In this document: in pieces, positions 1-48,661 of the stretch
Numbering within the stretch: position 1 is the stretch's first letter
Layout: the number at the start of each line of letters is the position of its first letter
Source of the DNA: Microbacteriaceae bacterium
GTDB lineage: Bacteria; Actinomycetota; Actinomycetes; Actinomycetales; Microbacteriaceae
Length of the DNA stretch: 48,661 bases
Direction of reading: 5' to 3'
Assembly: GCA_018666065.1 (NCBI GenBank)
Contig: JABJAO010000011.1
Location: forward strand, 1-48,661
The notes under the pieces: generated by a model
Told to the model about the DNA's origin: nothing
The model's input: the letters and a program-made list of their open reading frames with translations, nothing else
The model's database searches: none
Program-made: the position numbers and the translations under genes

Positions 1-3000
1 GCGCGCTCATCTGCGGAAAGAGAGGAAGCTGTGGAGCCCTGGCCGTGTGAGGAAGGTGCTGAGGATGCTCCTGCGCCAAATAGCCCGCTGACCACAACGC
101 TTCGCGCCTGGTGAGCGCTAGATCCTCCAATGCTCCAGCACTGGCCAACGCTTCAATGTGGGTGGAGCTAAGACCCACCCGCCTGGCAAGGTCAGAGGCA
201 TCCGCAAAAGGCCCACCCTGCTGACGTTCCTGCACAATCCGCGTAGCTGTTTCCAGCCCGACGCCCTTCACGCTGGCTAGACCCAACCTGGCCGCGAGCT
301 CCCCGTCTCGACGGTGAGACACAGTGGGATCCTCACCTGAAGGATCAAATACGGAGGTTGGGGTTGGTTGCTCATAGATCAGGCAGTCATCCCGTCCCGT
401 GGGGGCGGCGGATTTTCCTGTGAGGGGTTCCACAGACGCGTGCACTTCTGAATATTGCACGGACGGCCTCCGGATGGACACTCCGTGGCGTTCAGCGTCC
501 GAAACCAACGACGCCGGCGAGTAAAAGCCCATCGGCCAGGCACGAAGCAGTCCCGCGAGGAAAATAGCGGGGTAGTGCAACTTCAACCACGCACTGGCGT
601 ACACCAACAGCGCAAAACTCAGGGAATGGCTTTCGGCAAAACCAAAACTTGCAAACGCCTGGATCATGGCGTAGATCCGGTCCGAGGTTGCCTGATCGAG
701 ACCATGTTGCGCCATCCCGGTGTAGAGGGTCTCGCGCAACGATTCGATACGCTCTAGCCCTCTTTTCGAGCCCATTGCGCGGCGTAATAAGTCGGCGTCC
801 TCTCCTGTGCATCCTCCCACCGTCATCGCGATTTGCATCAGTTGCTCCTGGAAGACGGGGACACCCAACGTTCGCTTCAGACAGTCCTCGAGTGCGGGGT
901 GCGGATACTCCACAGGTTCTTTCCCCGCTTTGCGCCTGACAAAAGGGTGAACCGCTCCGCCCTGGATGGGTCCCGGGCGAATCATTGCAATCTGAATGGC
1001 GAGGTCGTAAAACCTTCGCGGTTGCAGCCGTGGCAGTAGGGACATCTGTGCACGCGACTCCACTTGAAAAACCCCAATGGAATCAGCCCGACAGAGCATG
1101 TCGTACACACCCTGTTCATCACGAGGGAGAGTGGCAAGATCCCACTGCTCACCAAGTTTTTCCGAGGCAAGGTCAAAGCTGTCTCTGATGGCTTCCAAAA
1201 TGCCAAGGCCTAAGAGGTCAAACTTCACCAACCCCATCCATTCACAGTCATCCTTATCCCACTGCAGCACCGTTCTCTTATCCATCCGAGCGGGCTCGAT
1301 CGGGACCACCTCCGACACGGGTCGGTCAGTAAGCACCATCCCTCCGGAGTGAATGCCCAGATGCCTGGGCATAGTGAGCGTGCGCAGCGCAAGAGCCGTC
1401 ACATCGGGGGGAATGGCATGAGATTGGCTCTCCCGCAACGCCCCAGAGCGTTCCACCTGTCGAGAAAACGCGTTTTGTTGCCCTGGGCTGTAGCCCAGGG
1501 CTCGGGCCATGTCTCGCACCGCGCTTTTTGCCTTGTACTCGATAACGGTCGCGACCTGGGCGGCGTTGGTGCGGCCGTAACGCTCATACACGTATTGAAT
1601 GACTTCTTCTCGCCGCCGGGATTCAAAGTCCACGTCGATATCGGGCTCCTCGTCGCGCAAGGCGGAGAGGAACCTTTCGAAAGGCAGGTTGTAGTAAATG
1701 GAATCCACCGCAGTGATGTCGAGAAGAAAACAGATGGCGGAATTCGCGGCAGAACCGCGTCCTTGACACAGAATTCCTCGCGATCTAGCGAAGGCGACAA
1801 TGTCGTGGACGATAAGAAAATACCCAGCAAAATCTTTGGTCTCAATCAGCGCAAGTTCGCGCTCAATACGTTCCATCACGGCAGAACCAGCTCCCGGATA
1901 CTTACGGGGAAGCGCCTGGGCAACAAGCTCCCGCAGGTAGCTGATTGTGGTGTGACCCTCAGGGCAGAGAGAACGCGGAAGGCCTGGGGATACCTTCTTG
2001 AGCGAGAAACTGAGCTCTCGGGCAATCTCAGCACTACGGATGACCGCGTCGCGATACTGGGGGAACCGTCGCACCTGCTCGCTCCCTGAGCGCATATAGG
2101 CGCTGGGGGCAGCAGGCAGCCACGTATGAAGTGAATCCATGCTGGTTCGGGCTCTCACCGCCGCCATGGCCTGTGCGAGATCTGCTTCCTCAGGTGTGGC
2201 GTAGTGCACAAGACCGGTCACGACCGTCGCGAGACCATGACGCGCTGCTACAGCAGCCAGAAAGTCGTTGTGCACGCTATCCAGTGGGTGCTGGTGATCA
2301 AAAAGCTCCACCACGACGTTCTCTGCCCCAAACCTTTCGACGAGGGCCAGCACAGCTTTTTCGCTCTGGTCTTGTTCAGCCCGGGACGGGGCGCGATGGT
2401 GGGGCAGAGGTGACCGAAGAGGGCCTTTTCTGCACCCAGTAAGAATCATCCACTGATCTCTGCCTCTCTCGGCAAGGCTGTCCAGATCACACCGCACGAT
2501 GCCCTTTTCTCCCGAAGTCAAATGGGCTTCAGTCAGCGCCGTAGACAGTGTGTGATACCCCTGCTCTCCTCGCGCCAAAACCAGGAGGTGCTCTCCCGGG
2601 GGGTCGGCCACATCGGTGCGAGGAGCCTGCGAGTCCACCGTAAATTCCGCGCCAAACACTGTGGGCATCTGATGGGCGGCGGCCGCTTCAGCAAACCGCA
2701 CAGCGCCGTAGAGTCCGTTGTGATCGGTAATTGCCAGTCCCCGAAGACCTAAACCCTTCGCTGTACTCACCAGCTTCTCCGGTGAGGAGACCCCGTCAAG
2801 AAAACTAAAACTGCTGTGGAGGTGAAGCTCCGCATACGGAATTGGGTCCTCTACTGCCTCACTCTTCTCGGGTGGCTCATACGGCGCCCGATGAGAAGAC
2901 CAGGCAGGGGAGTCTCCTGCGTCAGCGCCAACTGGAGGCGAGCTGCCCGGTCTCGATGCCTCTCGAAGCCTTCTCTCGTGTTCAGACCAGGGGATAGGGG

Positions 3001-3016
3001 GGTTATGCCACCCCAC
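1..3016 (-). CDS. dnaE2: Error-prone DNA polymerase III alpha subunit DnaE2 (partial, 3' end beyond window)
   Basis: Not in ORF track because no stop lies inside the window. Reverse-strand frame starting GTG at 3016 reads VGWHNPPIPWSEHERRLREASRPG...YAELHLHSSFSFLDGVSSPEKLV (PHP domain), ...GILCQGRGSAANSAICF..., DEEPDIDVDFESRRREEVIQYVYERYG (polymerase motif), ...PQLPLFPQMSA at the edge. Start overlaps the imuB stop (TAGTG). Confidence 0.93.
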   Translation of the reverse strand, partial: MGWHNPPIPWSEHERRLREASRPGSSPPVGADAGDSPAWSSHRAPYEPPEKSEAVEDPIPYAELHLHSSFSFLDGVSSPEKLVSTAKGLGLRGLAITDHNGLYGAVRFAEAAAAHQMPTVFGAEFTVDSQAPRTDVADPPGEHLLVLARGEQGYHTLSTALTEAHLTSGEKGIVRCDLDSLAERGRDQWMILTGCRKGPLRSPLPHHRAPSRAEQDQSEKAVLALVERFGAENVVVELFDHQHPLDSVHNDFLAAVAARHGLATVVTGLVHYATPEEADLAQAMAAVRARTSMDSLHTWLPAAPSAYMRSGSEQVRRFPQYRDAVIRSAEIARELSFSLKKVSPGLPRSLCPEGHTTISYLRELVAQALPRKYPGAGSAVMERIERELALIETKDFAGYFLIVHDIVAFARSRGILCQGRGSAANSAICFLLDITAVDSIYYNLPFERFLSALRDEEPDIDVDFESRRREEVIQYVYERYGRTNAAQVATVIEYKAKSAVRDMARALGYSPGQQNAFSRQVERSGALRESQSHAIPPDVTALALRTLTMPRHLGIHSGGMVLTDRPVSEVVPIEPARMDKRTVLQWDKDDCEWMGLVKFDLLGLGILEAIRDSFDLASEKLGEQWDLATLPRDEQGVYDMLCRADSIGVFQVESRAQMSLLPRLQPRRFYDLAIQIAMIRPGPIQGGAVHPFVRRKAGKEPVEYPHPALEDCLKRTLGVPVFQEQLMQIAMTVGGCTGEDADLLRRAMGSKRGLERIESLRETLYTGMAQHGLDQATSDRIYAMIQAFASFGFAESHSLSFALLVYASAWLKLHYPAIFLAGLLRAWPMGFYSPASLVSDAERHGVSIRRPSVQYSEVHASVEPLTGKSAAPTGRDDCLIYEQPTPTSVFDPSGEDPTVSHRRDGELAARLGLASVKGVGLETATRIVQERQQGGPFADASDLARRVGLSSTHIEALASAGALEDLALTRREALWSAGYLAQEHPQHLPHTARAPQLPLFPQMSA

Positions 3017-4569
3017 TAGTCATACCTGGCCTCAAGGGACCACGCCTGATCGCAGAGCGACATCAGCCAGCCCATGCCGTGTTCGTCAACAACCTGTAAC
3101 CGATGCACGAATCGACTTCGCGTGGGGTCCCACCATTTTTCCCAGACAGGCCAGGGACCCGCCCACGATGTGACCTTAAGTCGACTGGAACCAGAGACTA
3201 ACCAGGCAGGGGAACTGGACAGCTCCGCTCTCGAGGAAACACCCACCGCATGTCCGTCGTCGCCGACCAGAGAAATTTCTCGGGGAGTGGAAAAAATTGT
3301 TGCAGGAAGCGGACTGGGGAGAGAACCGGGGAGTGGACCCTGAGCAGACTGCTGCTCATGGTCTCCCCAGGTAGTCAACACATGGGTGTCACCGGCCAAT
3401 CGTCCCTGTCTGGAGCTGCCGGTGAGCACACCCTGTGCCCCCACGAGGCCTTGAACCCTAGAAAACACGTGGTGCACACGAGAATCAGGACCCGCCCCCC
3501 ACAAACCAGGTTCATGCGAAAGGGCATCTTCAGGCTCTAGTGCGTCACATTCAACCCAGGTGACACTGGGAGGAACCACATCAGAGGAAACTTCGGTGTT
3601 ACGAAAAGACTGTTCGAGTTGCCACCGCACACGATCGAGCAGGTCAGAAGGAGTAAAGAATCTAGGGTGCGTCCACACTTTTTCCTGTTGAGCACCATCA
3701 TCAAATCCGATGACCACGCGCACCCTGGTGATGACGACACCAGCGCGTCGCAATCTGTTGTCATACCGCTCCAGCGGTGCCTTGATGTTGAAGGCGACCT
3801 GCTCCACAAGAGAACAAGGCTCAGCCAGCTCCATTCGCTCACGAGTGTCCTCGGGCGCATCGCGAACCAACAAGGGAGCCTCGGCAGTTCCTCCCGCAAG
3901 CCGAAAAAGGCGCTCGCCAGGAACACCGAGCCTCTCACGAATAGCGTCAATACCTAGATTCACAAAGTCACCTAGTGTGCGAAGCCCTAAACGCAGCAGG
4001 AGAGAAACTGTTGCATCATCATCGAGCACGTCGAGGGGCATTTCGGAGAGGAAGAGGGCTGAGTTTTTGGGCTCCACCCTCCTGAACGGATAAGCCTCTG
4101 TGGTGTGCTTGGCAGCTGTAACTGCCGTGAATACGTCATCCGCAATTCCTATACGAGCCTCCGCCAAGGGTTCGCTCTGCACCAGAGCGTCACGGAGCAT
4201 GCGGCCAGCGGCTTCCTCGCTGCCATAAAAACGCTCTAACCCTCGGGCCCCAAAGGCAACAAGCCCGGGAGCAAGCACAGCGTGTTGGGGAACATACTCC
4301 GCGAGATCAGTGAGCACACGATCAAAAGCGCGTCTCTCGCGGTGCTCATCACGAGCGGCCATGACCAAGCTAGGACACAGAGTATGAGCCTCTCGAACCT
4401 TCATTCCCTGACGAACACCGGCGTGAGCGGCAGACGCGGAGCAGTCGGTGAGCACTCCACCGTGAACCAGAGCGAGTGGAACATCAGGGACTGCCTCCGG
4501 CAGCGCTTCATCTCGATACGCCGCCACAACAGACCATCTGGGAGACCACATGACAATGCTTCGCGCCAT
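3016..4569 (-). CDS. imuB: Y-family polymerase-like protein ImuB
   Basis: 517 aa; Y-family-like fold signatures without the DMDxFF/DE catalytic acids (MARSIVMWSPRWSVVAAYRD...; RGLERFYG), flanked by ImuA' and DnaE2. Confidence 0.9.
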   Translation of the reverse strand: MARSIVMWSPRWSVVAAYRDEALPEAVPDVPLALVHGGVLTDCSASAAHAGVRQGMKVREAHTLCPSLVMAARDEHRERRAFDRVLTDLAEYVPQHAVLAPGLVAFGARGLERFYGSEEAAGRMLRDALVQSEPLAEARIGIADDVFTAVTAAKHTTEAYPFRRVEPKNSALFLSEMPLDVLDDDATVSLLLRLGLRTLGDFVNLGIDAIRERLGVPGERLFRLAGGTAEAPLLVRDAPEDTRERMELAEPCSLVEQVAFNIKAPLERYDNRLRRAGVVITRVRVVIGFDDGAQQEKVWTHPRFFTPSDLLDRVRWQLEQSFRNTEVSSDVVPPSVTWVECDALEPEDALSHEPGLWGAGPDSRVHHVFSRVQGLVGAQGVLTGSSRQGRLAGDTHVLTTWGDHEQQSAQGPLPGSLPSPLPATIFSTPREISLVGDDGHAVGVSSRAELSSSPAWLVSGSSRLKVTSWAGPWPVWEKWWDPTRSRFVHRLQVVDEHGMGWLMSLCDQAWSLEARYD

Positions 4570-4572
4570 GAG

Positions 4573-5271
4573 CTACCCCGCCTTTCGGTGGTGGGCAAGA
4601 TCAATGACGGGAGCCATGCGAGTAGCTGTGCGCAGCCCCCCATGGTCGATCACCACATCACAGGAGAGCGCCGTCTGGCCTGGACGCGGTGTGGCCGTAA
4701 TGCGCAAGTGGTGCTCGCGCAAAATACCTCGACCTTGCTCAACACCATCCCACTGATGCTCTACCGCAAGCGCTGCGTCTACCCGGGGCCAGGAAGAGCG
4801 CACCAACAGTGTCGACTCTCTCTCGCGTAAGCGACCAGAGAGCGTGGAGAGCGCTCGTTCACTGGGCGCTGGAAACGCCCCCAGCGCGCACACTCCCACA
4901 ACGTCAATGAGTGCACCCAGTACGGCCATCCACTGCGAACCAGGGGAGGGAACAAGCACAAGCCGATCAACATTGACACCTAACTCTTCTGCGGCAGCCA
5001 CGCCCAAATCAGGCATCCCCACCACGGCACACCAGGTGCCCTGCTGGGTGGCTTCGGCCAGAAGGGCCCACAACAACGACGTAGAAGAGTCCACAGAGTA
5101 GACAGATCCCGTGTTGAGCCCCCCACGAGGAAAAATGCTGCTCACCGCAGAGTGCACCGGAATAACTCGGGAGCCCACGCGAGTGCTCTCCATCACCTGA
5201 ATGCGCTGGCGCAGGGCTTGCACATCAGCGCGAGTGGGTTCATGACTCTCGAGGGTCAAGGCGGGGGACAT
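4573..5271 (-). CDS. imuA': ImuA' (RecA-like SOS mutagenesis protein)
   Basis: ORF MSPALTLESHEPTRADVQALRQRIQV...SSIFPRGGLNTGSVYSVDSSTSLLWALLAEATQQGTW. Start revised from 5319 to ATG 5271 because the longer ORF would translate the LexA operator and promoter. Confidence 0.85.
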   Translation of the reverse strand: MSPALTLESHEPTRADVQALRQRIQVMESTRVGSRVIPVHSAVSSIFPRGGLNTGSVYSVDSSTSLLWALLAEATQQGTWCAVVGMPDLGVAAAEELGVNVDRLVLVPSPGSQWMAVLGALIDVVGVCALGAFPAPSERALSTLSGRLRERESTLLVRSSWPRVDAALAVEHQWDGVEQGRGILREHHLRITATPRPGQTALSCDVVIDHGGLRTATRMAPVIDLAHHRKAG

Positions 5272-5277
5272 AGAGCT

Positions 5278-5306
5278 ATATTCGAACATTTGTTCGATTC
5301 TGTCAA
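5278..5306 (-). promoter_or_regulatory. imuA' promoter overlapping the LexA box
   Basis: Minus strand TTGACA-N17-GAATAT-AGCTCT-ATG; perfect -35, 17-bp spacer, xAxxxT -10, 6 nt before the start codon. Confidence 0.7.
5282..5297 (-). promoter_or_regulatory. LexA (SOS) box upstream of imuA'-imuB-dnaE2
   Basis: TCGAACATTTGTTCGA: perfect CGAAC-N4-GTTCG actinobacterial SOS-box palindrome, 11 bp upstream of ATG 5271. Confidence 0.92.
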
Positions 5307-5427
5307 CATCCACTGACACGCAGTCAGTCCGTGGCCCCGCGAGAGACTCGATCTACCCCTGAGGTGCCTCCCCACCCCGGTCAGGAGGCGAAATTGAGGA
5401 GCGCGCTCATCAGGTTCAGAATTACTG

Positions 5428-6933
5428 TTACGCCTCTGATCCGAGGTTTCCGGCCAGTTTCCCGTGAATTCTGAGGCTTGCTGAGTTGAGTCCCTGAATG
5501 TCGACTCGCTTGCCGTGATTTTCATACTTTTCGGTAATCGAATCAAGCGAGGCCACGGTTGAGGCATCCCAAATGTGCGATTGCGACATGTCGATAACCA
5601 CCAACTCTGGGTCTTCCACATAGTCAAACTGGGTGTACAGGTCGTTACTTGAGGCAAAGAACAGCTCTCCGGTGACCGTGTAGTGGGCTTCAGTGCGCCC
5701 CTCGACGTCCTTAATTTCCCGTGTCACGTCGGTGAAATGGGCCACCCGCCGGGCAAAGAGGATCATCGCGGTCAGAACCCCGACGATGACACCAATTGCG
5801 AGATTGTGGGTCCAGACCACCGCGATAACGGTCAACACCATGACCGATGTTTCACTCTTGGGCATTCTCCTCAGCGTGGAGGGCAAAACGCTATGCCAGT
5901 TGAAAGTGGCCACGGAGACCATAATCATCACGGCAACCAGCGCAGCCATGGGAATCATGGATACCAGGTCGCCAAAACCCACGACCAAGACGAGCAAGAA
6001 GACCCCCGCCAAAAAGGTCGAAATGCGCGTCCTCGCGCCGGATACTTTGACGTTAATCATGGTCTGGCCAATCATCGCGCAGCCACCCATTCCTCCCAAG
6101 AGCCCCGAGAGGACGTTTGCTACGCCCTGCCCCAGTGCTTCGCGAGTCTTGCGAGAGTGCGTATCGGTGACATCGTCGACGAGCTTCGCTGTCAACAGCG
6201 ACTCCAACAAACCCACCAGGGCCATGGCCAGTGCATAGGGGGCGATGATGTTGAACGTCTCCACCGTGAGGGGCACATTCGGAATGAACAGCTCGGGAAG
6301 GCTACTGGGAAGATCTCCCTCGTCGCCCACCGTGGGCACGGTAATCGCCAGCGCTATCGAGGCGACTGTAATCAGCACAATCGATATCAGGGGCGCAGGA
6401 ATGACGCGGGTAATTCTGGGCACCAACACCATGATGATGATTCCCACAGCGACCATCGGATAGACCATCACCGGCACTCCGATGAGCTGAGGCATCTGGG
6501 AGAGAAAAATCAGGATTGCCAGGGCGTTGACGAACCCGATCATGACGCTTCGCGGAATGAAGCGCATGAGCTTGGCAAACCCCACAGCGCCCAGAACAAG
6601 CTGGAAAACCCCGGCGAGAATCACGGTCGCTATGAAGTAGTCCATGCCATAGTCACGGGCAATCGGCGCTATCACCAGAGCTACCGCTCCGGTTGCGGCG
6701 GTGATCATGGCAGGCCGGCCACCCACAAAAGCGATGGTGACGGCCATCACAAAGGAAGAAAACAGTCCCACTTTCGGGTCGACGCCGGCAATCAAAGAGA
6801 AGGCGATTGCCTCGGGGATGAGCGCGAGTGCCACAACCAAACCGGCGAGAACTTCGCGGGTGAGAAGTGCGGGGGATTTCAGGGCGTCGAAGACGCTGGG
6901 CTTTGCGGCATAACTGGGCGTCGTGAGTGTCAT
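5428..6933 (-). CDS. SulP/SLC26-family anion transporter with C-terminal STAS domain
   Basis: [58 protein letters not shown]...; C-terminal STAS ([23 protein letters not shown]). Track start at 7140 runs through the tRNA, so start set at ATG 6933. Confidence 0.9.
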
Positions 6934-40901: not shown

Positions 40902-42038
40902 CTACCGCAGGAATTCGGGAACGTCGAGTTCGCCGTCGTCGTCCGCTTCAGCAGCGAATGCCGGTGCTTCCTCGGCGGGAATGGAGGGCTGCTGCTCAGA
41001 AGGCAGAAGCCACGACTCCTCCGCCACCGGCTCTACGTTGTCGCTTGCGCTGACGGGCTGTGCGGCGGGCACTGGCGCTGCGGAGCGCTGCTGGGATTCG
41101 TCGAAGCCCGCGGCAACCACTGTCACCCGCACCTCATCTCCCAACGAGTCGTCAATGACAGCACCAAACATGATGTTGGCATCCGGGTGGACTGCTTCCT
41201 CGACCAACTTGGCAGCGTCGTTGATTTCGTAGAGTCCCAGGTTGGAGCCACCTTGAATCGAGAGCAGAACCCCCTGGGCGCCCTCGATGCTCGATTCGAG
41301 CAGAGGAGACGCTACGGCGAGCTCTGCAGCCTTGACAGCCCGGTCAGCGCCTCTGGCCGACCCAATGCCCATCAGGGCTGTTCCAGCATCCTGCATGACC
41401 GATTTCACGTCCGCGAAATCCAAGTTGATCAACCCGGGCGTGGTGATGAGATCGGTGATGCCCTGAACCCCGGCCAGCAGAACGTGATCGGCTGTCTCAA
41501 AGGCTTCCAGCATGCTGATGGTGCGATCTGAAATCTCGAGCAGACGGTCATTGGGAACGACAATCAGAGTGTCCACTTCGTCCTTGAGGGCCTGAACCCC
41601 GACCTCCGCTTGCGACATCCGACGCTTACCCTCAAACGCGAAAGGCTTTGTCACGATCCCAACGGTTAGGGCGCCGATGGATTTTGCAATGCGAGCCACC
41701 ACGGGTGCCCCACCGGTCCCGGTCCCGCCACCTTCGCCTGCAGTGACAAACACCATGTCGGCTCCCGCGAGGGCTTGCTCGATTTCTTCTTGGTGGTCCT
41801 CTGCTGCTCGACGACCCACCTCGGGGTCGGCGCCCGCGCCGAGTCCGCGAGTCAGGTCGCGACCAACGTCGAGTTTCACATCCGCGTCACTCATCAAGAG
41901 CGCCTGCGCGTCGGTGTTGATGGCGATAAATTCCACACCCCGCAACCCTCGATCAATCATGCGATTGACGGCGTTGACGCCACCACCGCCGACCCCCACT
42001 ACTTTGATCAAAGCGTGGTAGTTGTGTTGACCGGGCAC
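40902..42038 (-). CDS. ftsZ: Cell division protein FtsZ
   Basis: [56 protein letters not shown] start with AAAGGAG RBS. Confidence 0.97.
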
Positions 42039-42183: not shown

Positions 42184-43035
42184 TCAGCCCCTGGTGCGGA
42201 CGACCACACTGTCAGGGGTGGTGACGTCAATGATCTTCGTGTCGCCATCCCCCAGAGCGATGAGGCTTGCAGCGAGCACCCGCGCTTTCGCGGGAGAACG
42301 CTCGGAACTGCCCCACACGACCTCGTGAGAACTCCCACGAATGGTGAAGCGGACATCATCCAGAGTGGTTGCCGTGACGCCCTCTACCTGCACCAACAAC
42401 TCATCGGGGAGAGCCAGGAGCACGCGAGAAATAGCCGTAAAGCTCGGAGAGTCGGTCTCTGGCTGCACCAGGATCTGGGGCAAACCCTGCGGGAGAATCG
42501 CTTCCTCCCACAACACGACACCTGCCGCGTCTACGATCTCGAAGGCTTCGCGTCCTCGAAACGCGCCGAGTGGCTTGCGCTCCACAATGCTGACCACCAG
42601 CGTTCCCGGCGGCTCCAGGCGCGTTTCAAAAGCCTGAATCAGGGTGAGCGGCTCTAGAGCGCTGGCAACGCGCTCATCGCTCACCCGGGCCAGTGGCTCG
42701 CCGTATAGCCCGGCCAGCGCTTGCTCAATGTGAGCCGGAGTCACTCGAGTGCCTCCCTCCACGCGAACGTCCCGCAGCGCAAGAGCCGGGGAGAGCGTCA
42801 AGACGATGACGCTCAAGACCAAGAGACCCACACTTCCCAGCGAAATGGCCCACGTAATTCTCCGACACCGGGTGGCCTCGGTGAATCGCCGATACTCCGC
42901 CTTCTCCGCTGAGACACGCTGGCGCGAGGCCTGCTTGACCTTTGCCGAGGAGGGCGAGGGCTGGGCGCGCTTCGCTGGCGCTTTGCTGGGCCTGCGGGGC
43001 GAAAAACCCTCGGGTCTATCCACCCGAGGCCTCAT
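42184..43035 (-). CDS. ftsQ: Cell division protein FtsQ
   Basis: Single TM then POTRA-like region (LRDVRVEGGTRVTPAHIEQALAGLYGEPLARV); start at ATG 43035 overlapping murC end. Confidence 0.9.
   Translation of the reverse strand: MRPRVDRPEGFSPRRPSKAPAKRAQPSPSSAKVKQASRQRVSAEKAEYRRFTEATRCRRITWAISLGSVGLLVLSVIVLTLSPALALRDVRVEGGTRVTPAHIEQALAGLYGEPLARVSDERVASALEPLTLIQAFETRLEPPGTLVVSIVERKPLGAFRGREAFEIVDAAGVVLWEEAILPQGLPQILVQPETDSPSFTAISRVLLALPDELLVQVEGVTATTLDDVRFTIRGSSHEVVWGSSERSPAKARVLAASLIALGDGDTKIIDVTTPDSVVVRTRG
43002..43029 (-). terminator. Putative intrinsic terminator/attenuator at murC-ftsQ junction
   Basis: Minus strand CCTCGGGT-GGATAG-ACCCGAGG followed by GTTTTT; perfect 8-bp GC-rich stem, 6-nt loop containing the murC TAG stop. 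Confidence 0.6.
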
Positions 43036-44425
43036 CGCGACGCCTCTTCGCGGCCAAGAGCTGCGGGACGATTTGGTAGAGGTCTCCCGTGGACATCGTG
43101 AGAACAATGTCACCCGGCATAGCTCGCGTCACAGCGAGCTCGCACGCCGCGTCCCATGCAGGCTCAAACTCGAACGACGAACCCGAGGCCATCCGATCCA
43201 GAATCAGCTGCGTGGTGACGCCCTCGATGGGGTCCTCTCGGGATCCAAAAATATCGAGAAATATCGTGTGATCGCTTCCCTGGGAAAAAGCGTCGGCAAG
43301 CTCCCCGGCCATGTATTGCGTCCGGGAATACAGGTGTGGCTGAAACATCGTGATGACGGAGCCATCCCCGGCAACAGCGTGCGCAGTTTCCAGGGCAGCT
43401 GCGACTTCGGTGGGGTGGTGTGCGTGGTCGTCATAGAAACGAACTCCGCCAATCTCTGCGTGAAATTGGAACCGGCGATCGGCACCTTGGAAGCCACTGG
43501 CAGCATCCGCGGCATCCTGGAGTGAGAACCCAGTCGCAATCAGGGTTGCGATTACTCCCGTGGCGTTGAGCGCCGGGAGCCGACCGGGGACACCGAGCTC
43601 GCACTGAGCGCTCTCCCCCTGATACGTCACACTAAAGCGCGCTCGGGGACCCGCCACCAGATCGGTTATCTGGACGGTGGCATCGGGATGTACGCCATAG
43701 GTGATGACCCGCGCCGATGGTTCCATACGCGCGGCCAGGTGCCGAGTGCCCTCGTCATCGGCACACAGCACCACAGCCTCGCGCGCGGTGCGGGCAAAAT
43801 CGTCGAACGCGTCGTAAATCGCATCGAGCGTTCCATAAAAATCCAGATGGTCGGGTGCGATGTTGGTAATCATCACCACGGCAGGGTCGTATCCCACAAA
43901 CGATCGATCGGATTCGTCCGCTTCGATGACGAAAAGGTCGTCGGTGCCCCATCGAGAGGACACGCCCCACTCGCTGATGACTCCCCCGTTCACCGCTCCA
44001 ACCGGAAGTCCACAGCGATCCAACGCGGTAGCGAGCATGGCCGTGGAGGTGGTCTTCCCGTGGGAGCCCGCAACCGCCAGAACCCGTTTACCTCGGATTA
44101 TCCAGCGCAGCGCTTCGGAGCGATGAAGGATCGTGAGTCCGCGGGCTGTGGCTTCCGCGAATTCGGGATTGTTCTCGCGGACCGCACTCGAGACGACGAC
44201 CGTATCTGCCGAACCGAGGTGGCTGGCGTCGTGCCCAATGTGCACAGGTATGCCCGCTGATTCCAGCGACTCGGTCACCTCCGAGGCAAAGCGGTCTGAG
44301 CCGGTCACGACCAGGCCACGCTCTCTCAAGACTCGGGCAATTCCGCTCATCCCCGAACCGCCCACCCCAATGCAGTGAACCTGGCCAAGCTCCGCGGGGA
44401 TTTCTCTGCCTATCTCCGGTCTCAT
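43016..44425 (-). CDS. murC: UDP-N-acetylmuramate--L-alanine ligase
   Basis: HCIGVGGSGMSGIARVLRERG; VLAVAGSHGKTTSTAMLATAL (intact P-loop); DDHAHHPTEVAAAL. Confidence 0.96.
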   Translation of the reverse strand: MRPEIGREIPAELGQVHCIGVGGSGMSGIARVLRERGLVVTGSDRFASEVTESLESAGIPVHIGHDASHLGSADTVVVSSAVRENNPEFAEATARGLTILHRSEALRWIIRGKRVLAVAGSHGKTTSTAMLATALDRCGLPVGAVNGGVISEWGVSSRWGTDDLFVIEADESDRSFVGYDPAVVMITNIAPDHLDFYGTLDAIYDAFDDFARTAREAVVLCADDEGTRHLAARMEPSARVITYGVHPDATVQITDLVAGPRARFSVTYQGESAQCELGVPGRLPALNATGVIATLIATGFSLQDAADAASGFQGADRRFQFHAEIGGVRFYDDHAHHPTEVAAALETAHAVAGDGSVITMFQPHLYSRTQYMAGELADAFSQGSDHTIFLDIFGSREDPIEGVTTQLILDRMASGSSFEFEPAWDAACELAVTRAMPGDIVLTMSTGDLYQIVPQLLAAKRRRDEASGG

Positions 44426-45522
44426 GACCGCTCACCTTTCTTCGGGTCTCCGAGGGCCCCGGCCATCACCTGGACAAACGCTTCCGCGGCATCCGCCCGT
44501 CCCAGCCCCTTCGCGCGTGCGCGCATACTCTCCAGGGCGACATCGTCATTGAGTAGCGGGAGGACGGTCGTGCGCACAGCGGCGGGGGTGAAATCGGAGT
44601 CCCCCACCAGTACGGCAGCACCGGCCTGCAAGGAATTGCCTGCGTTCTTTTCCTGCTCACCGTTTCCCACGGGATAGGGAACAAATACGGCGGGCAAGCC
44701 TAAGAGCTGAATTTCAGACACCGTCGCCGCTCCCGCACGAGAGATCACGGCTGTGGCGGCGGCGAACGCGAGATCCATGCGGTCGCAGTAGCGAAGAGCC
44801 ACGTAACCCGGTCCCACAGAGGCTGGAAGGGGGTTTCGATTGCCCACGATGTGGAGAATTTGCCACCCGGCGGCCAGGAGATCGGCTGCAACAGCTTCGA
44901 TTGTCGAGTTGATCGTCACCGAACCCTGTGAGCCACCAGTCACCACAAGAGTCTTTTTCCGCGCCGAGAGTCCAAAGTGCTTGCGGGCATCAGAGACGCT
45001 CGTGCGTGTGGTGGGGTGAGTAATGGCGCGGGCCATCGGCATACCCAGCAGCTTCGCGCCGGGAAGGTTTGTCACAGAAAACGTGGTGACGACGTGGCGG
45101 GTGAGCCGTGCACCCCATCGGTTGGCAAACCCTGCGACAGCGTTCGCCTCATGAATAACGAGCGGCACCCGCGCTAGCCAGGCCGCAACATACACAGGTG
45201 CCGACACGTATCCACCGAAGCCGGCCACAATCTTCGCGCGATGGGAGCGGATGATGCGAAAACTTGCCACAACAGCGGCGATAAAGCGCGGCACAAACAT
45301 AAGCGCCCTCAACGACAATCGTCTCGGCAACGGCAATCTTCCGATGGTGACGAGGGCATACCCAGCCTCAGGGACAAGCCGCGTCTCTAACCCCTCCTTC
45401 GTGCCCACAACGAGAATTTCCGCGGGGGTCGCTACTTCGTGGCGGATGAGCTCGTGCGCTACGGCAAGCAGCGGGTTCACGTGCCCGGCGGTGCCTCCAC
45501 CGGCAAGAAGCACTCGAGTCAT
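44422..45522 (-). CDS. murG: UDP-GlcNAc--MurNAc-pentapeptide-undecaprenol transferase
   Basis: VLLAGGGTAGHVNPLLAVAHEL; GFGGYVSAPVYVAAWLARVPLVIHEANAVAGFANRWGAR. Confidence 0.96.
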   Translation of the reverse strand: MTRVLLAGGGTAGHVNPLLAVAHELIRHEVATPAEILVVGTKEGLETRLVPEAGYALVTIGRLPLPRRLSLRALMFVPRFIAAVVASFRIIRSHRAKIVAGFGGYVSAPVYVAAWLARVPLVIHEANAVAGFANRWGARLTRHVVTTFSVTNLPGAKLLGMPMARAITHPTTRTSVSDARKHFGLSARKKTLVVTGGSQGSVTINSTIEAVAADLLAAGWQILHIVGNRNPLPASVGPGYVALRYCDRMDLAFAAATAVISRAGAATVSEIQLLGLPAVFVPYPVGNGEQEKNAGNSLQAGAAVLVGDSDFTPAAVRTTVLPLLNDDVALESMRARAKGLGRADAAEAFVQVMAGALGDPKKGERS

Positions 45523-46751
45523 CGCGCAGATCTCTGCCGGGCAGGTGGCGCGCTGACGGAGACGGCATCATGGCGGTTGACCGCCATGACCACTCCCACC
45601 GCGATGAGCGAGGACATCAGCGCCGACCCGCCCACCGACATGAAGGGTAGCGGGACTCCGAGAACGGGAAGAACTTCGAGCACCACGGCGATGTTGATCA
45701 GCGCCTGTCCAATCAACCAGACCATGACTCCGCCGGTCACCAGACGCGCAAAAGGGTCCGGCTGGTTGCGCACCAGCCGTGCCATGGCGACGGCCAAAAC
45801 AACAAAGGACACAATGACCATGCTCGTGCCGATGAGGCCGAGTTCCTCCCCCACTATGGCAAAGATGAAGTCTGTTTCGGCCTCAGGTAGCCACGACCAT
45901 TTGGCGCGGGAATTTCCCAGTCCCACCCCGAAGACTCCGCCGGATCCCAGCGCAAATGTGGAGTGCACAATTTGCCAGCAGCTCCCCAAGTAGTCGTCCT
46001 CCGTGCAGCCGGAGAACCACGTCATGATGCGAGAAATCCTTGATGGACTGAGCAGCGCCAGGAACGCTACACCGGCTCCAATCACGGCGACCACGGTCAG
46101 CAGGTGACTCATGCGAGCGCCCGCCAGGAAAACAATGCCCAGGGCAATCAGGGTCATTACTCCCATAGTTCCCAGATCCTGGCCCATGACAACCAGGCTG
46201 AGGGCAATCAGGACCCCCAGGCCGAGGGATCGAACCAAGGTGCGGTAGTCCTCAACATCGTCTATTCGGTCCGCAAGAATCGCTGCCATCCACATGATCA
46301 TCGCGACCTTCAGAATTTCAGACGGCTGCCCTGTCAAACCCGCGATATTGACCCAGTTCGTGTTACCCCCTGAGGTAATACCCAGCGGTGTGAAGACCAA
46401 GCCCTGCAGGAGCAGAGCACCAAGAAAGAGTGTGGGTGCCATTTTCTTGAGACTTCGAGGGGGAAAGCGAGAAATGACGAGCATCATCGGAATACCCAAC
46501 AGGACCCAGATAACTTGCCGGAAAAAGGTGGCAAAGAAATTCCCATCGTTGCCAAGGGCTGAGCCCACAAAAGACGACGACAGCACCATGACCAGTCCAA
46601 AAATGACCAGGAAAAACACCATCGACACCATGACGACGAAGTCAGCAGATTCATGCCCGAAGAGCCGCTTCACCGTGACGGTGACACGAGGAGCGGACGC
46701 TCGAGCAGCCGTCTGGGTCATCGCCACCTCACCTGCCTCACGCTGACACAA
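45519..46751 (-). CDS. ftsW: Peptidoglycan polymerase/division protein FtsW
   Basis: SEDS signatures (SRAKWSWLPEAETDFIFAIVGEELGLIGTSMVI; GVPLPFMSVGGSALMSSLIAVG). Confidence 0.95.
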   Translation of the reverse strand: MCQREAGEVAMTQTAARASAPRVTVTVKRLFGHESADFVVMVSMVFFLVIFGLVMVLSSSFVGSALGNDGNFFATFFRQVIWVLLGIPMMLVISRFPPRSLKKMAPTLFLGALLLQGLVFTPLGITSGGNTNWVNIAGLTGQPSEILKVAMIMWMAAILADRIDDVEDYRTLVRSLGLGVLIALSLVVMGQDLGTMGVMTLIALGIVFLAGARMSHLLTVVAVIGAGVAFLALLSPSRISRIMTWFSGCTEDDYLGSCWQIVHSTFALGSGGVFGVGLGNSRAKWSWLPEAETDFIFAIVGEELGLIGTSMVIVSFVVLAVAMARLVRNQPDPFARLVTGGVMVWLIGQALINIAVVLEVLPVLGVPLPFMSVGGSALMSSLIAVGVVMAVNRHDAVSVSAPPARQRSAR

Positions 46752-46851: not shown

Positions 46852-47859
46852 CTAGGGCAGGCTCAACACTCCGGCGATCAGGGCCGGTTCGACGTCACGA
46901 GAGCGGGCAATGGCCACAGCCGCCAATATCGCAGGAATGTCCCCGGGGATGTCCCATCCGGCTTCTGCAAGCTCGTCAACTGTTGAAATCTCGAGCGCCT
47001 GGTTGGCGCGGTCCTCCAGGAATGCGCGATCCACGATAATTCCTTCGACCACACCGATGTCGCTCATGCCCGGCGAGTCCAGGCCGATACCAATGGCCCT
47101 GGCGCCCTCCACAACATCGGCGTCAGCAACCTGAGATTCCGAGGGCCCCACCCCTTTGCGATAGACGCAGGCCAGTGTTGTTCCATCGAAGAACACTCCC
47201 GACTCTGCGGGACTGCCCTCACCCCAGGACACCGTAACCCTGGGGCTTACCGGACTGTCGGGAAAACGCTCTTTCCATACAAGTGAAGCTGGAGAGACCT
47301 GAATAATCAGAGCCGAATAGGGACGGGGCTCCCGCAGAGCATCCAGGAGGGGTGGCGCCTGAAAGCCAACCACCCTCGTGGGGTGCGAAGCAGCCTGGAA
47401 AATTCTCTGTGCGAGCCCCACCGTCGTGTCACTATCGCCGCTGTGCTGGACCAGAATCCACTCCGCGGGCTCACCGCTCTTATCTCGCAACCGCCACGCA
47501 AGATTGAGATCGGACAACACCGGGACACCCGCATGGGAAAGCTGGACCACCACGGGATCTGTCGGCGCAACCCCGGGTGACACAACAGCAAAATCAGGGT
47601 CGATTCCCTCAAGCGCCGCGTGCCGTTGAGTATCGTCAGATTCGACAATTACCCGAGCGCCCACCACTTCGGAGAGCTTCACAATGTCTGGAGCGGCTTC
47701 GGCCGCTATGACCGTGACATCACAGCCCAGCTCGCACAGTGTGTCGACGATGGCGAAGCCGGTGTGTCCAAGGCCGATGACAACGGCACGCAGACCCGAC
47801 CACGGCGAATGCCAACTTGTGAGATTTTCCGGGGCGGCACTACTCAACGACTGAGCCAC
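46852..47859 (-). CDS. Degenerate MurD-like protein (P-loop and C-terminal ligase domain missing)
   Basis: Occupies murD slot between mraY and ftsW; MurD-like N-domain (VVIGLGHTGFAIVDTLCELGCDVTV...FAVVSPGVAPTDPVVVQLSHAGVPVLSDLNLAWRL) and mid-domain (TTLACVYRKGVGPSESQVADADVVEGARAIGIGLDSPGMSDIGVVEGIIVDRAF) retained, GTNGKTT replaced by HSGDSDTT, stops at domain 2/3 boundary. Confidence 0.85.
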   Translation of the reverse strand: MAQSLSSAAPENLTSWHSPWSGLRAVVIGLGHTGFAIVDTLCELGCDVTVIAAEAAPDIVKLSEVVGARVIVESDDTQRHAALEGIDPDFAVVSPGVAPTDPVVVQLSHAGVPVLSDLNLAWRLRDKSGEPAEWILVQHSGDSDTTVGLAQRIFQAASHPTRVVGFQAPPLLDALREPRPYSALIIQVSPASLVWKERFPDSPVSPRVTVSWGEGSPAESGVFFDGTTLACVYRKGVGPSESQVADADVVEGARAIGIGLDSPGMSDIGVVEGIIVDRAFLEDRANQALEISTVDELAEAGWDIPGDIPAILAAVAIARSRDVEPALIAGVLSLP

Positions 47860-48661
47860 TCCAGGTAGAACAGGCCAGCTCCCACAGCTGCAAACAACCC
47901 GGCAATTAGCCAGAACCGCACCACGATCGTGACTTCTGCCCAGCCCTTGATTTCATAATGATGATGCAGCGGGGAGGAGTAGAAAATCCGTCGACCCCCG
48001 GTGGCCTTGAAATACAAGCGCTGAAGAATGACCGACCCGGTCAGAATGACAAAGAGTCCCCCGACAATCGGGAGGAGAATTTCGGTGCGGGAGAAGAGCG
48101 CTAACGCGGCAACTCCCCCACCCAGAGCCAGCGAGCCCGTATCGCCCATGAAAATCTTTGCAGGTGAGGTGTTCCACCACAGGAACCCAATCAAACTGGC
48201 AGCCGCTATCGCCGCCACAGCAGTGAGCTCCAGTGAGTCACGGACCTCGTAACACTTATAGAGGACGTCTTCATCGGGGAAGGCTCGGTAGCACGACTGG
48301 TTGAACTGCCAGAACGTAATCATCACGTAGGCGACAAAAACCAAAATGGTCGAACCGCTGGCAAGCCCATCAAGACCGTCGGTCAGATTCACCGCGTTGG
48401 AGGTTCCCACGATGATCAGCGTCGCCCAGATCGCAAACGCTACGACGGCAGCCCAGTACCCCCACTCCACAAACGACACGACATCGGCGCCCCGCACGAG
48501 GGAAATTCCCTGTGCAGCGGGCGTGACACCGTTGTCATCGGCGAACGAGAGTGCGCCCCACGCAAACGCAATAGAGACAGCCAGTTGGCCGATGACTTTG
48601 CCTCGCGGAGACAATCCCAATGACTGCTGGCGCCGGACTTTGGAAAAATCATCAAGGAAAC
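47844..48661 (-). CDS. mraY: Phospho-N-acetylmuramoyl-pentapeptide-transferase (partial, 5' end beyond window)
   Basis: Frame extends to the edge: FLDDFSKVRRQQSLGLSPRGKVIGQ; NAVNLTDGLDGLASG; MGDTGSLALGG; PLHHHYEIKGWAE. Confidence 0.96.
   Translation of the reverse strand, partial: FLDDFSKVRRQQSLGLSPRGKVIGQLAVSIAFAWGALSFADDNGVTPAAQGISLVRGADVVSFVEWGYWAAVVAFAIWATLIIVGTSNAVNLTDGLDGLASGSTILVFVAYVMITFWQFNQSCYRAFPDEDVLYKCYEVRDSLELTAVAAIAAASLIGFLWWNTSPAKIFMGDTGSLALGGGVAALALFSRTEILLPIVGGLFVILTGSVILQRLYFKATGGRRIFYSSPLHHHYEIKGWAEVTIVVRFWLIAGLFAAVGAGLFYLEWLSR

Follow-up and report, generated by a model that had tools for sequence, protein, structure and literature searches.

It is a long-debated question whether the Mur ligases also serve a structural purpose within a multi-enzyme complex, and such a role is hard to test because the deletion of a ligase also removes its catalysis. 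In M. tuberculosis, the Mur ligases bind FtsZ, FtsW, FtsQ, Wag31, and SepF and show no binding to each other (PMC3605390), while in other bacteria Mur ligases bind MurG (PMC6420597). The MurD2/MurL pathway described in Xanthomonas and Micromonospora (PMC8788868) resembles the system reported here in its L-Glu residues, in an adjacent MurL homologue, and in the absence of MurI; it differs in that the murI-rph slot here contains murL-murD2 and the old murD is kept in a dead form. The review of MurD2/MurL lists no Microbacteriaceae (PMC8788868), which are now added to the taxa with MurD2/MurL genes. CwlM, the mycobacterial regulator of MurA, is likewise a protein of the actinobacterial precursor pathway that resembles an enzyme but is retained for something other than catalysis; its fold, however, is unrelated and it is not a Mur ligase. 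MurT (of MurT-GatD) also has a Mur-ligase fold put to another job, yet it keeps its P-loop, unlike the protein described below; a separate MurT-like protein (L006, GSNGKS) is encoded in the same genome.

Live MurDs share with this protein, herein called pseudo-MurD, the slot between mraY and ftsW, the N-terminal domain, and a two-domain fold (TM about 0.7), and those of the family are about 40–47% identical to it over about 330 aa. Unlike them, it is devoid of the P-loop, the Mg/ATP residues, the catalytic Lys, DHLDWHG, and the C-terminal Glu-ligase domain. MurD2/MurL and pseudoenzymes in general are already known; an inactive or truncated MurD was not found in the open-access literature, and the open literature searched likewise yielded neither a dead MurD that is conserved, nor its repeated retention once displaced, nor a parallel MurF relic.

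The window, i.e., the whole stretch of 48,661 nucleotides that was analysed, makes up contig C14 of an actinobacterial genome (a MAG) of 1.30 Mb and 95% completeness, the closest named relatives of which are mostly MAGs of Pontimonas sp., a marine member of the Microbacteriaceae. Its dcw genes run on the minus strand in the order mraY, pseudo-murD, ftsW, murG, murC, ftsQ, and ftsZ (Table 1). Elsewhere in the window (1-5319), three consecutive minus-strand ORFs resemble, by eye, an error-prone polymerase cassette of the DnaE2-ImuB-ImuA type.

Table 1. Positions of the features discussed, in the window unless another locus (L) is named
Feature	Position	Strand	Description
pseudo-murD	46852..47859	minus	335-aa two-domain catalytically dead MurD homologue, murD slot of dcw cluster
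Degenerate P-loop	47422..47448	minus	QHSGDSDTT, residues 138-146, replacing TGTNGKTTT
Retained block	46969..47178	minus	residues 228-297, highest conservation
Retained N-terminal domain	47515..47802	minus	Rossmann-like, about residues 20-115
mraY	47844..48659	minus	cut by contig end; 3' end overlaps pseudo-murD start
ftsW	45519..46751	minus	next gene downstream of pseudo-murD; likely start near 46721
murG	44422..45522	minus	
murC	43016..44425	minus	catalytically intact, GSHGKTT
ftsZ	40902..42038	minus	
murD2	L136:3631-5040	minus	GSKGKST, PEHLDWH, GGHDRG, SPAAPSF
murF relic, window's own genome	L001 292-999 (contig C37)	complement	
murF relic	L137 about 6096-6728		
MurF-type ligase, window's own genome	L002 949-2523 (contig C106)	complement	524 aa, P-loop GSYGKT

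Losses and conserved parts of pseudo-MurD

The pseudo-murD gene is an open frame of 335 aa with a GTG start, and it overlaps the 3' end of mraY by 16 nt (47844-47859), much as the sequence-only reading had described an intact 335-codon ORF overlapping mraY. In the alignment, the P-loop columns TGTNGKTTT read QHSGDSDTT, so that the invariant Lys143, which is lost in all Pontimonas pseudo-MurDs, is a Ser; DHLDWHG is deleted, the column of the catalytic (carbamylated) Lys is lost, and the protein ends at residue 335, leaving the C-terminal glutamate-ligase domain absent. In a Pfam search, MurD-like_N (PF21799) is the sole family above its cut-off (36.9 bits), with no match to Mur_ligase_M or Mur_ligase_C, and the NCBIfam murD model TIGR01087 gives 62.6 bits over residues 25-198, short of its cut-off of 211.95 bits. 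The earlier claims of a degenerate P-loop without its Lys, an unrecognisable DHLDWHG, a missing C-terminal ligase domain, and a MurC that keeps GSHGKTT are thereby confirmed. Pseudo-MurD consequently has none of the features looked for in an active D-Glu ligase, namely the P-loop with the ATP/Mg residues, the carbamylated Lys with DHLDWHG, the C-terminal domain, and the family score; by descent it is a MurD homologue, as seen from its N-domain, its place between mraY and ftsW, and the fold search.

The losses are distributed unevenly along the protein. Live MurDs have a mean pairwise identity of 0.66 in the ATP-binding half (residues 136-227), against 0.40 for Pontimonas and 0.38 for the other dead MurDs; in the block of residues 228-297 the respective values are 0.56, 0.69, and 0.59, and in the N-domain 0.48, 0.43, and 0.44. 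The block 228-297 (LACVYRKGV...DADVVEGARAIG...DSPGMSDIG...VDRAF...ALEISTVDEL) is near-invariant across deeply diverged pseudo-MurDs, which bears out the earlier remark that mid-domain blocks such as ACVYRKGV are well kept. Since live and dead MurDs have 47 conserved residues in common, and only three (D267, I274, and V323) are conserved in dead but not live ones, the pattern is, on these alignments, apparently one in which one MurD function was lost and another kept, rather than a new one gained.

A structure model of the window protein from 39 aligned sequences (pLDDT 91, pTM 0.89) found MurDs as its best PDB matches in a fold search, with a TM of about 0.7 over about 330 columns, although the alignment included live MurDs and may steer the model. 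A model from the Pontimonas rows only (pLDDT 70) did not resolve residues 226-292, i.e., the conserved block, and is too weak to judge it. The deep Pontimonas branches do not conserve Thr33 and SPG94-96, and the canonical Asn166 is lost; these positions, like DHLDWHG, are presumed to contact the substrate, as we take from known E. coli MurD structures.

All 19 Pontimonas genomes have a dead murD in the interval from mraY to ftsW, among them a complete, single-contig genome of 1,760,810 bp that matches P. salivibrio. The full-length homologues of the genus (n = 18) are 33–70% identical to the window protein, all without a P-loop, and share its loss of the MurD motifs and of the C-terminal domain; the length of pseudo-MurD is similar over the whole genus, with frame breaks in two low-quality MAGs (split in G009, one TAG in G018). 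Absolute dN/dS values were taken from the three least saturated pairs, the remaining pairs being saturated at synonymous sites and set aside. For pseudo-murD they are 0.091 (G002/G006), 0.099 (G015/G018), and 0.140 (G094/G255, a pair from another genus with the same dead-murD state); in the same order, murG gives 0.231, 0.101, and 0.113, and ftsQ 0.192, 0.065, and 0.021. Purifying selection on pseudo-murD is comparable to that on its neighbours murG and ftsQ.

Three circumstances that could have undone the sequence-only reading were examined. A frameshift, sequencing, or assembly error is rejected, as the DNA itself gives an uninterrupted ORF and the same form recurs in 19 genomes, including a single-contig one; a normal murD occurs in none of the 19 Pontimonas genomes, while almost every other genus in the family has one; and dN/dS is not neutral but about 0.1 in the closest pairs, therefore excluding a young neutral pseudogene. 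The view of a non-catalytic pseudoenzyme with a retained frame is thus supported, in that catalytic residues have been lost under continued purifying selection.

MurL, MurD2, and the state of murD in other genomes

In the genome of the window, the PF01177 and TIGR00067 profiles found no MurI, so an unusual MurI was rejected. Contig C94 carries a murL homologue, then a full-length MurD-type ligase, then rph. The MurL homologue matches NF041275 over its whole length (residues 8-446) with 329 bits, below the equivalog cut-off of 700 bits of this model, which is named for xanthomonads, and it is therefore a homologue outside the curated xanthomonad group; the absence of MurI from the genome is in keeping with a MurL. 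The ligase has the active-site motifs listed in Table 1, among them an intact P-loop (GSKGKST), and, at the E. coli MurD positions D182, K348, A414, and L416, the L-Glu residues E, R, P, and F of a MurD2; the same four differences have been reported for X. oryzae MurD2 and tied to the use of L-Glu (PMC8788868). By homology, the pair would act as a putative L-Glu ligase and a putative MurL. Six Mur_ligase_M proteins are encoded in the genome (MurC, MurE, a MurF-type ligase, MurD2, FolC, and the MurT-like protein), and a second canonical murD was rejected because there is no MurD-like ligase among them beyond MurD2. Of the two routes by which D-Glu addition had been expected to proceed elsewhere, the MurD2/MurL route thus stands, with both genes present and MurI absent, and the second MurD falls.

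Directly upstream of rph, murI is found in 11/11 of the MurL-less relatives checked, and MurL genomes have murL-murD2 in its place, with rph next in nearly all; because the same slot holds murI in MurL-less relatives, murL-murD2 appear to have replaced murI in situ. The replacement of murI beside rph, together with a dead murD in the dcw cluster, provides a simple genomic signature of the switch, and annotation could mistake such dead murD genes for those of active D-Glu ligases.

MurL was detected in 24/400 Microbacteriaceae genomes (8/85 genera) and in eight Pontimonas genomes outside the 400-genome draw, bringing that genus to 19/19. MurI above its cut-off is absent from every MurL-bearing Microbacteriaceae genome tested, and present in 32 of the 33 MurL-less genomes of one panel, with the exception of G033; two further MurL-less genomes, G077 and G084, are without MurI at the cut-off. 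These three genomes have an intact murD, and the panel gave no MurL match for them. Of the 13 MurL genomes outside Pontimonas, 12 have a dcw murD that is dead, truncated, or disrupted, versus 0 of 31 MurL-less genomes, whose aligned dcw MurDs all (31/31) keep the P-loop, DHxxWH, the catalytic Lys, and SKATN. A plain Fisher test of MurL against dead murD gives p = 6e-10, a value that ignores kinship and serves for orientation only. In a core-gene tree of five neighbouring proteins, the MurL lineages are placed apart, with at least seven changes of MurL state and at least six of murD state, and its supported branches offer six independent comparisons, of which five agree and one shows no change (sign-test p = 0.0625). 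A single common ancestor of all dead murDs is not favoured, given the number of MurL state changes and the more distant MurL/MurD2 of G200, G217, and G261.

Of the roughly seven MurL-bearing Microbacteriaceae lineages, only G200 has a dcw murD that looks intact, and the damage in the others is graded. Nine genomes have a truncated, P-loop-less MurD (G047, G049, G068, G094, G118, G153, G217, G255, and G294), G261 has a truncated one that keeps the P-loop, and G058 has a full-length one that has lost the catalytic Lys. In the single-contig genome G211, a frame break within the relic (L217, between about 9100 and 9600) reflects either a sequencing error or ongoing loss. G200 has MurL and no MurI, and its full-length dcw MurD (L213) keeps the P-loop and SKATN but reads EEHLDWHG where relatives have DHLDWHG; it is perhaps the earliest stage of the replacement. 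Read from their sequences, this series suggests an order in which the enzyme may have died.

Beyond the family, a second actinomycete family (f31/g132; G739, G536, and G485) retains a dead murD with N-terminal and central domains. The genomes of f33, f38, f12, and f24/g164 lack murD, and their mraY lies directly against ftsW; in f24/g115 murL-murD2 lie between mraY and ftsW. An arrangement of murL-murD2 inside the dcw cluster, at murD's place in the mraY-ftsW interval, was noted at L342 and L343 (G422 and G549). The sole murD remnant of f24/g147 is a C-terminal fragment. A 135-aa open frame follows mraY at L329 6795-7200 and L330 7275-7680 (G574 and G647) and matches only the C-terminal part of MurD, i.e., the opposite type of relic. 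Beside MurL, G456 and G662 have an intact MurD and a MurI-like gene that scores close to the cut-off (146.8 and 141 bits), in line with the reading favoured below. In G647, by contrast, a MurI above the cut-off accompanies the C-terminal MurD fragment; the link between the loss of MurD and MurI is therefore imperfect. Since murD has been deleted outright in several actinomycete families after the arrival of murL, any adaptor role would not be universal but lineage-dependent.

Readings of the retained MurD and MurF parts

The death and replacement of the dcw MurD are well supported, as judged from the sequence comparisons, and the reading of pseudo-MurD that we favour, and hold to be rather probable, is that of a replaced, dead enzyme kept for a role that is not catalytic, likely that of an adaptor within the precursor/division complex encoded by the dcw genes. 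The catalytic parts of MurD would have been lost because another enzyme pair took over its reaction: MurL and MurD2 would take on the D-Glu step, and the dcw MurD, no longer needed for catalysis, has lost ATP binding and its C-terminal domain, while the sequence comparisons show its N-terminal domain and the second half of its central domain to be under purifying selection. The retained part may then be an adaptor surface joining the Mur precursor enzymes to MraY, MurG, FtsW, or other division proteins. That catalysis is lost while strong selection maintains the gene in all relatives examined hints at a further, non-enzymatic task of MurD in the cell-wall and division machinery, and we infer an adaptor in particular because the gene has kept its place between mraY and ftsW, because binding of Mur ligases to division proteins or to MurG is reported from other bacteria, and because the substrate-contact positions are not kept. 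The scaffold for MraY, FtsW, and MurG that the sequence-only reading proposed would fit this retention and the published interactions. On several occasions, evolution has here stripped MurD of its catalysis and spared the remainder; the residues still conserved indicate which part of MurD may be important for non-catalytic contacts, and P. salivibrio is culturable, so a direct test of pseudo-MurD is possible.

The drift of those contact positions (Asn166 and DHLDWHG lost, Thr33 and SPG94-96 unconserved in deep branches) also speaks against the main rival, which we regard as unlikely, namely that pseudo-MurD is a regulator that binds a precursor or MurD2, MurL, or MurC and tunes flux in the manner of CwlM. 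It fits this rival that the N-domain fold is kept and that CwlM is an amidase-like regulator of precursor synthesis in actinobacteria (PMC6180346, PMC12723410). Slow decay, in which a relic ORF is kept mainly for mraY-to-ftsW translational coupling and its protein is functionless, is in our estimate less likely again: the 16-nt overlap with mraY, the frame breaks in G211, G009, and G018, and the deletion of the gene in other families would all be expected under it, but not the purifying selection at the amino-acid level, of the kind also seen on murG and ftsQ, the near-invariance of block 228-297, the similar length throughout the genus, or the retention of the same domains in separate lineages.

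The strongly conserved polar block D277, R278, R284, and E290 might indicate a ligase or transferase of new function that lacks the Mur ATP site; however, these residues are equally conserved in live MurDs, the residues conserved in dead MurDs alone are just the three given above, and no new nucleotide-binding motif was seen, which makes a new enzymatic function very improbable. That the window is a MAG contig could raise the suspicion of a sequencing or assembly artefact, or of a MurD that is still active, but the ORF is intact, the same state occurs in 19 genomes including a complete one, and TIGR01087 gives 62.6 against 212 bits, so that this explanation has next to no probability.

The adaptor reading of pseudo-MurD has a possible counterpart in murF. 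In Pontimonas, the murF slot between murE and mraY, upstream of the window, holds a P-loop-less protein of 150-229 aa that matches the C-terminal region of MurF with the motif EGSWDGES...AYD; similar relics occur in G081, G141, G200, G088, G047, and genus g77 (327-348 aa in g77), and dN/dS values of 0.08-0.20 in close pairs indicate purifying selection. The two kinds of relic are also found apart (G049, G058, G068, and G118 versus G081, G088, and G141), and a composite ligase assembled from the MurD and MurF relics was rejected because each occurs without the other. More tentatively than for pseudo-MurD itself, and with the balance slightly against it, the Mur ligases of these actinobacteria may have important non-catalytic parts that are separable from catalysis and left as pseudo-subunits after replacement from outside the dcw cluster, with the N-terminal and central domains of MurD and the C-terminal domain of MurF together forming an adaptor surface of the precursor/division complex. 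The ligase at L002 in the genome of the window has a hydrophobic N-terminus and scores 180 bits with TIGR01143 against a cut-off of 288.6. Its close relatives accompany the murF relic in nearly all genomes that have one, and no genome with a normal dcw murF has such a relative. Related full-length MurF-type ligases are present in Pontimonas, g77, G081, G141, G200, and G088, and genomes with a normal dcw murF give weak matches only to it; in G047, a weaker MurF-like match on another contig stands in place of an L002-type ligase.
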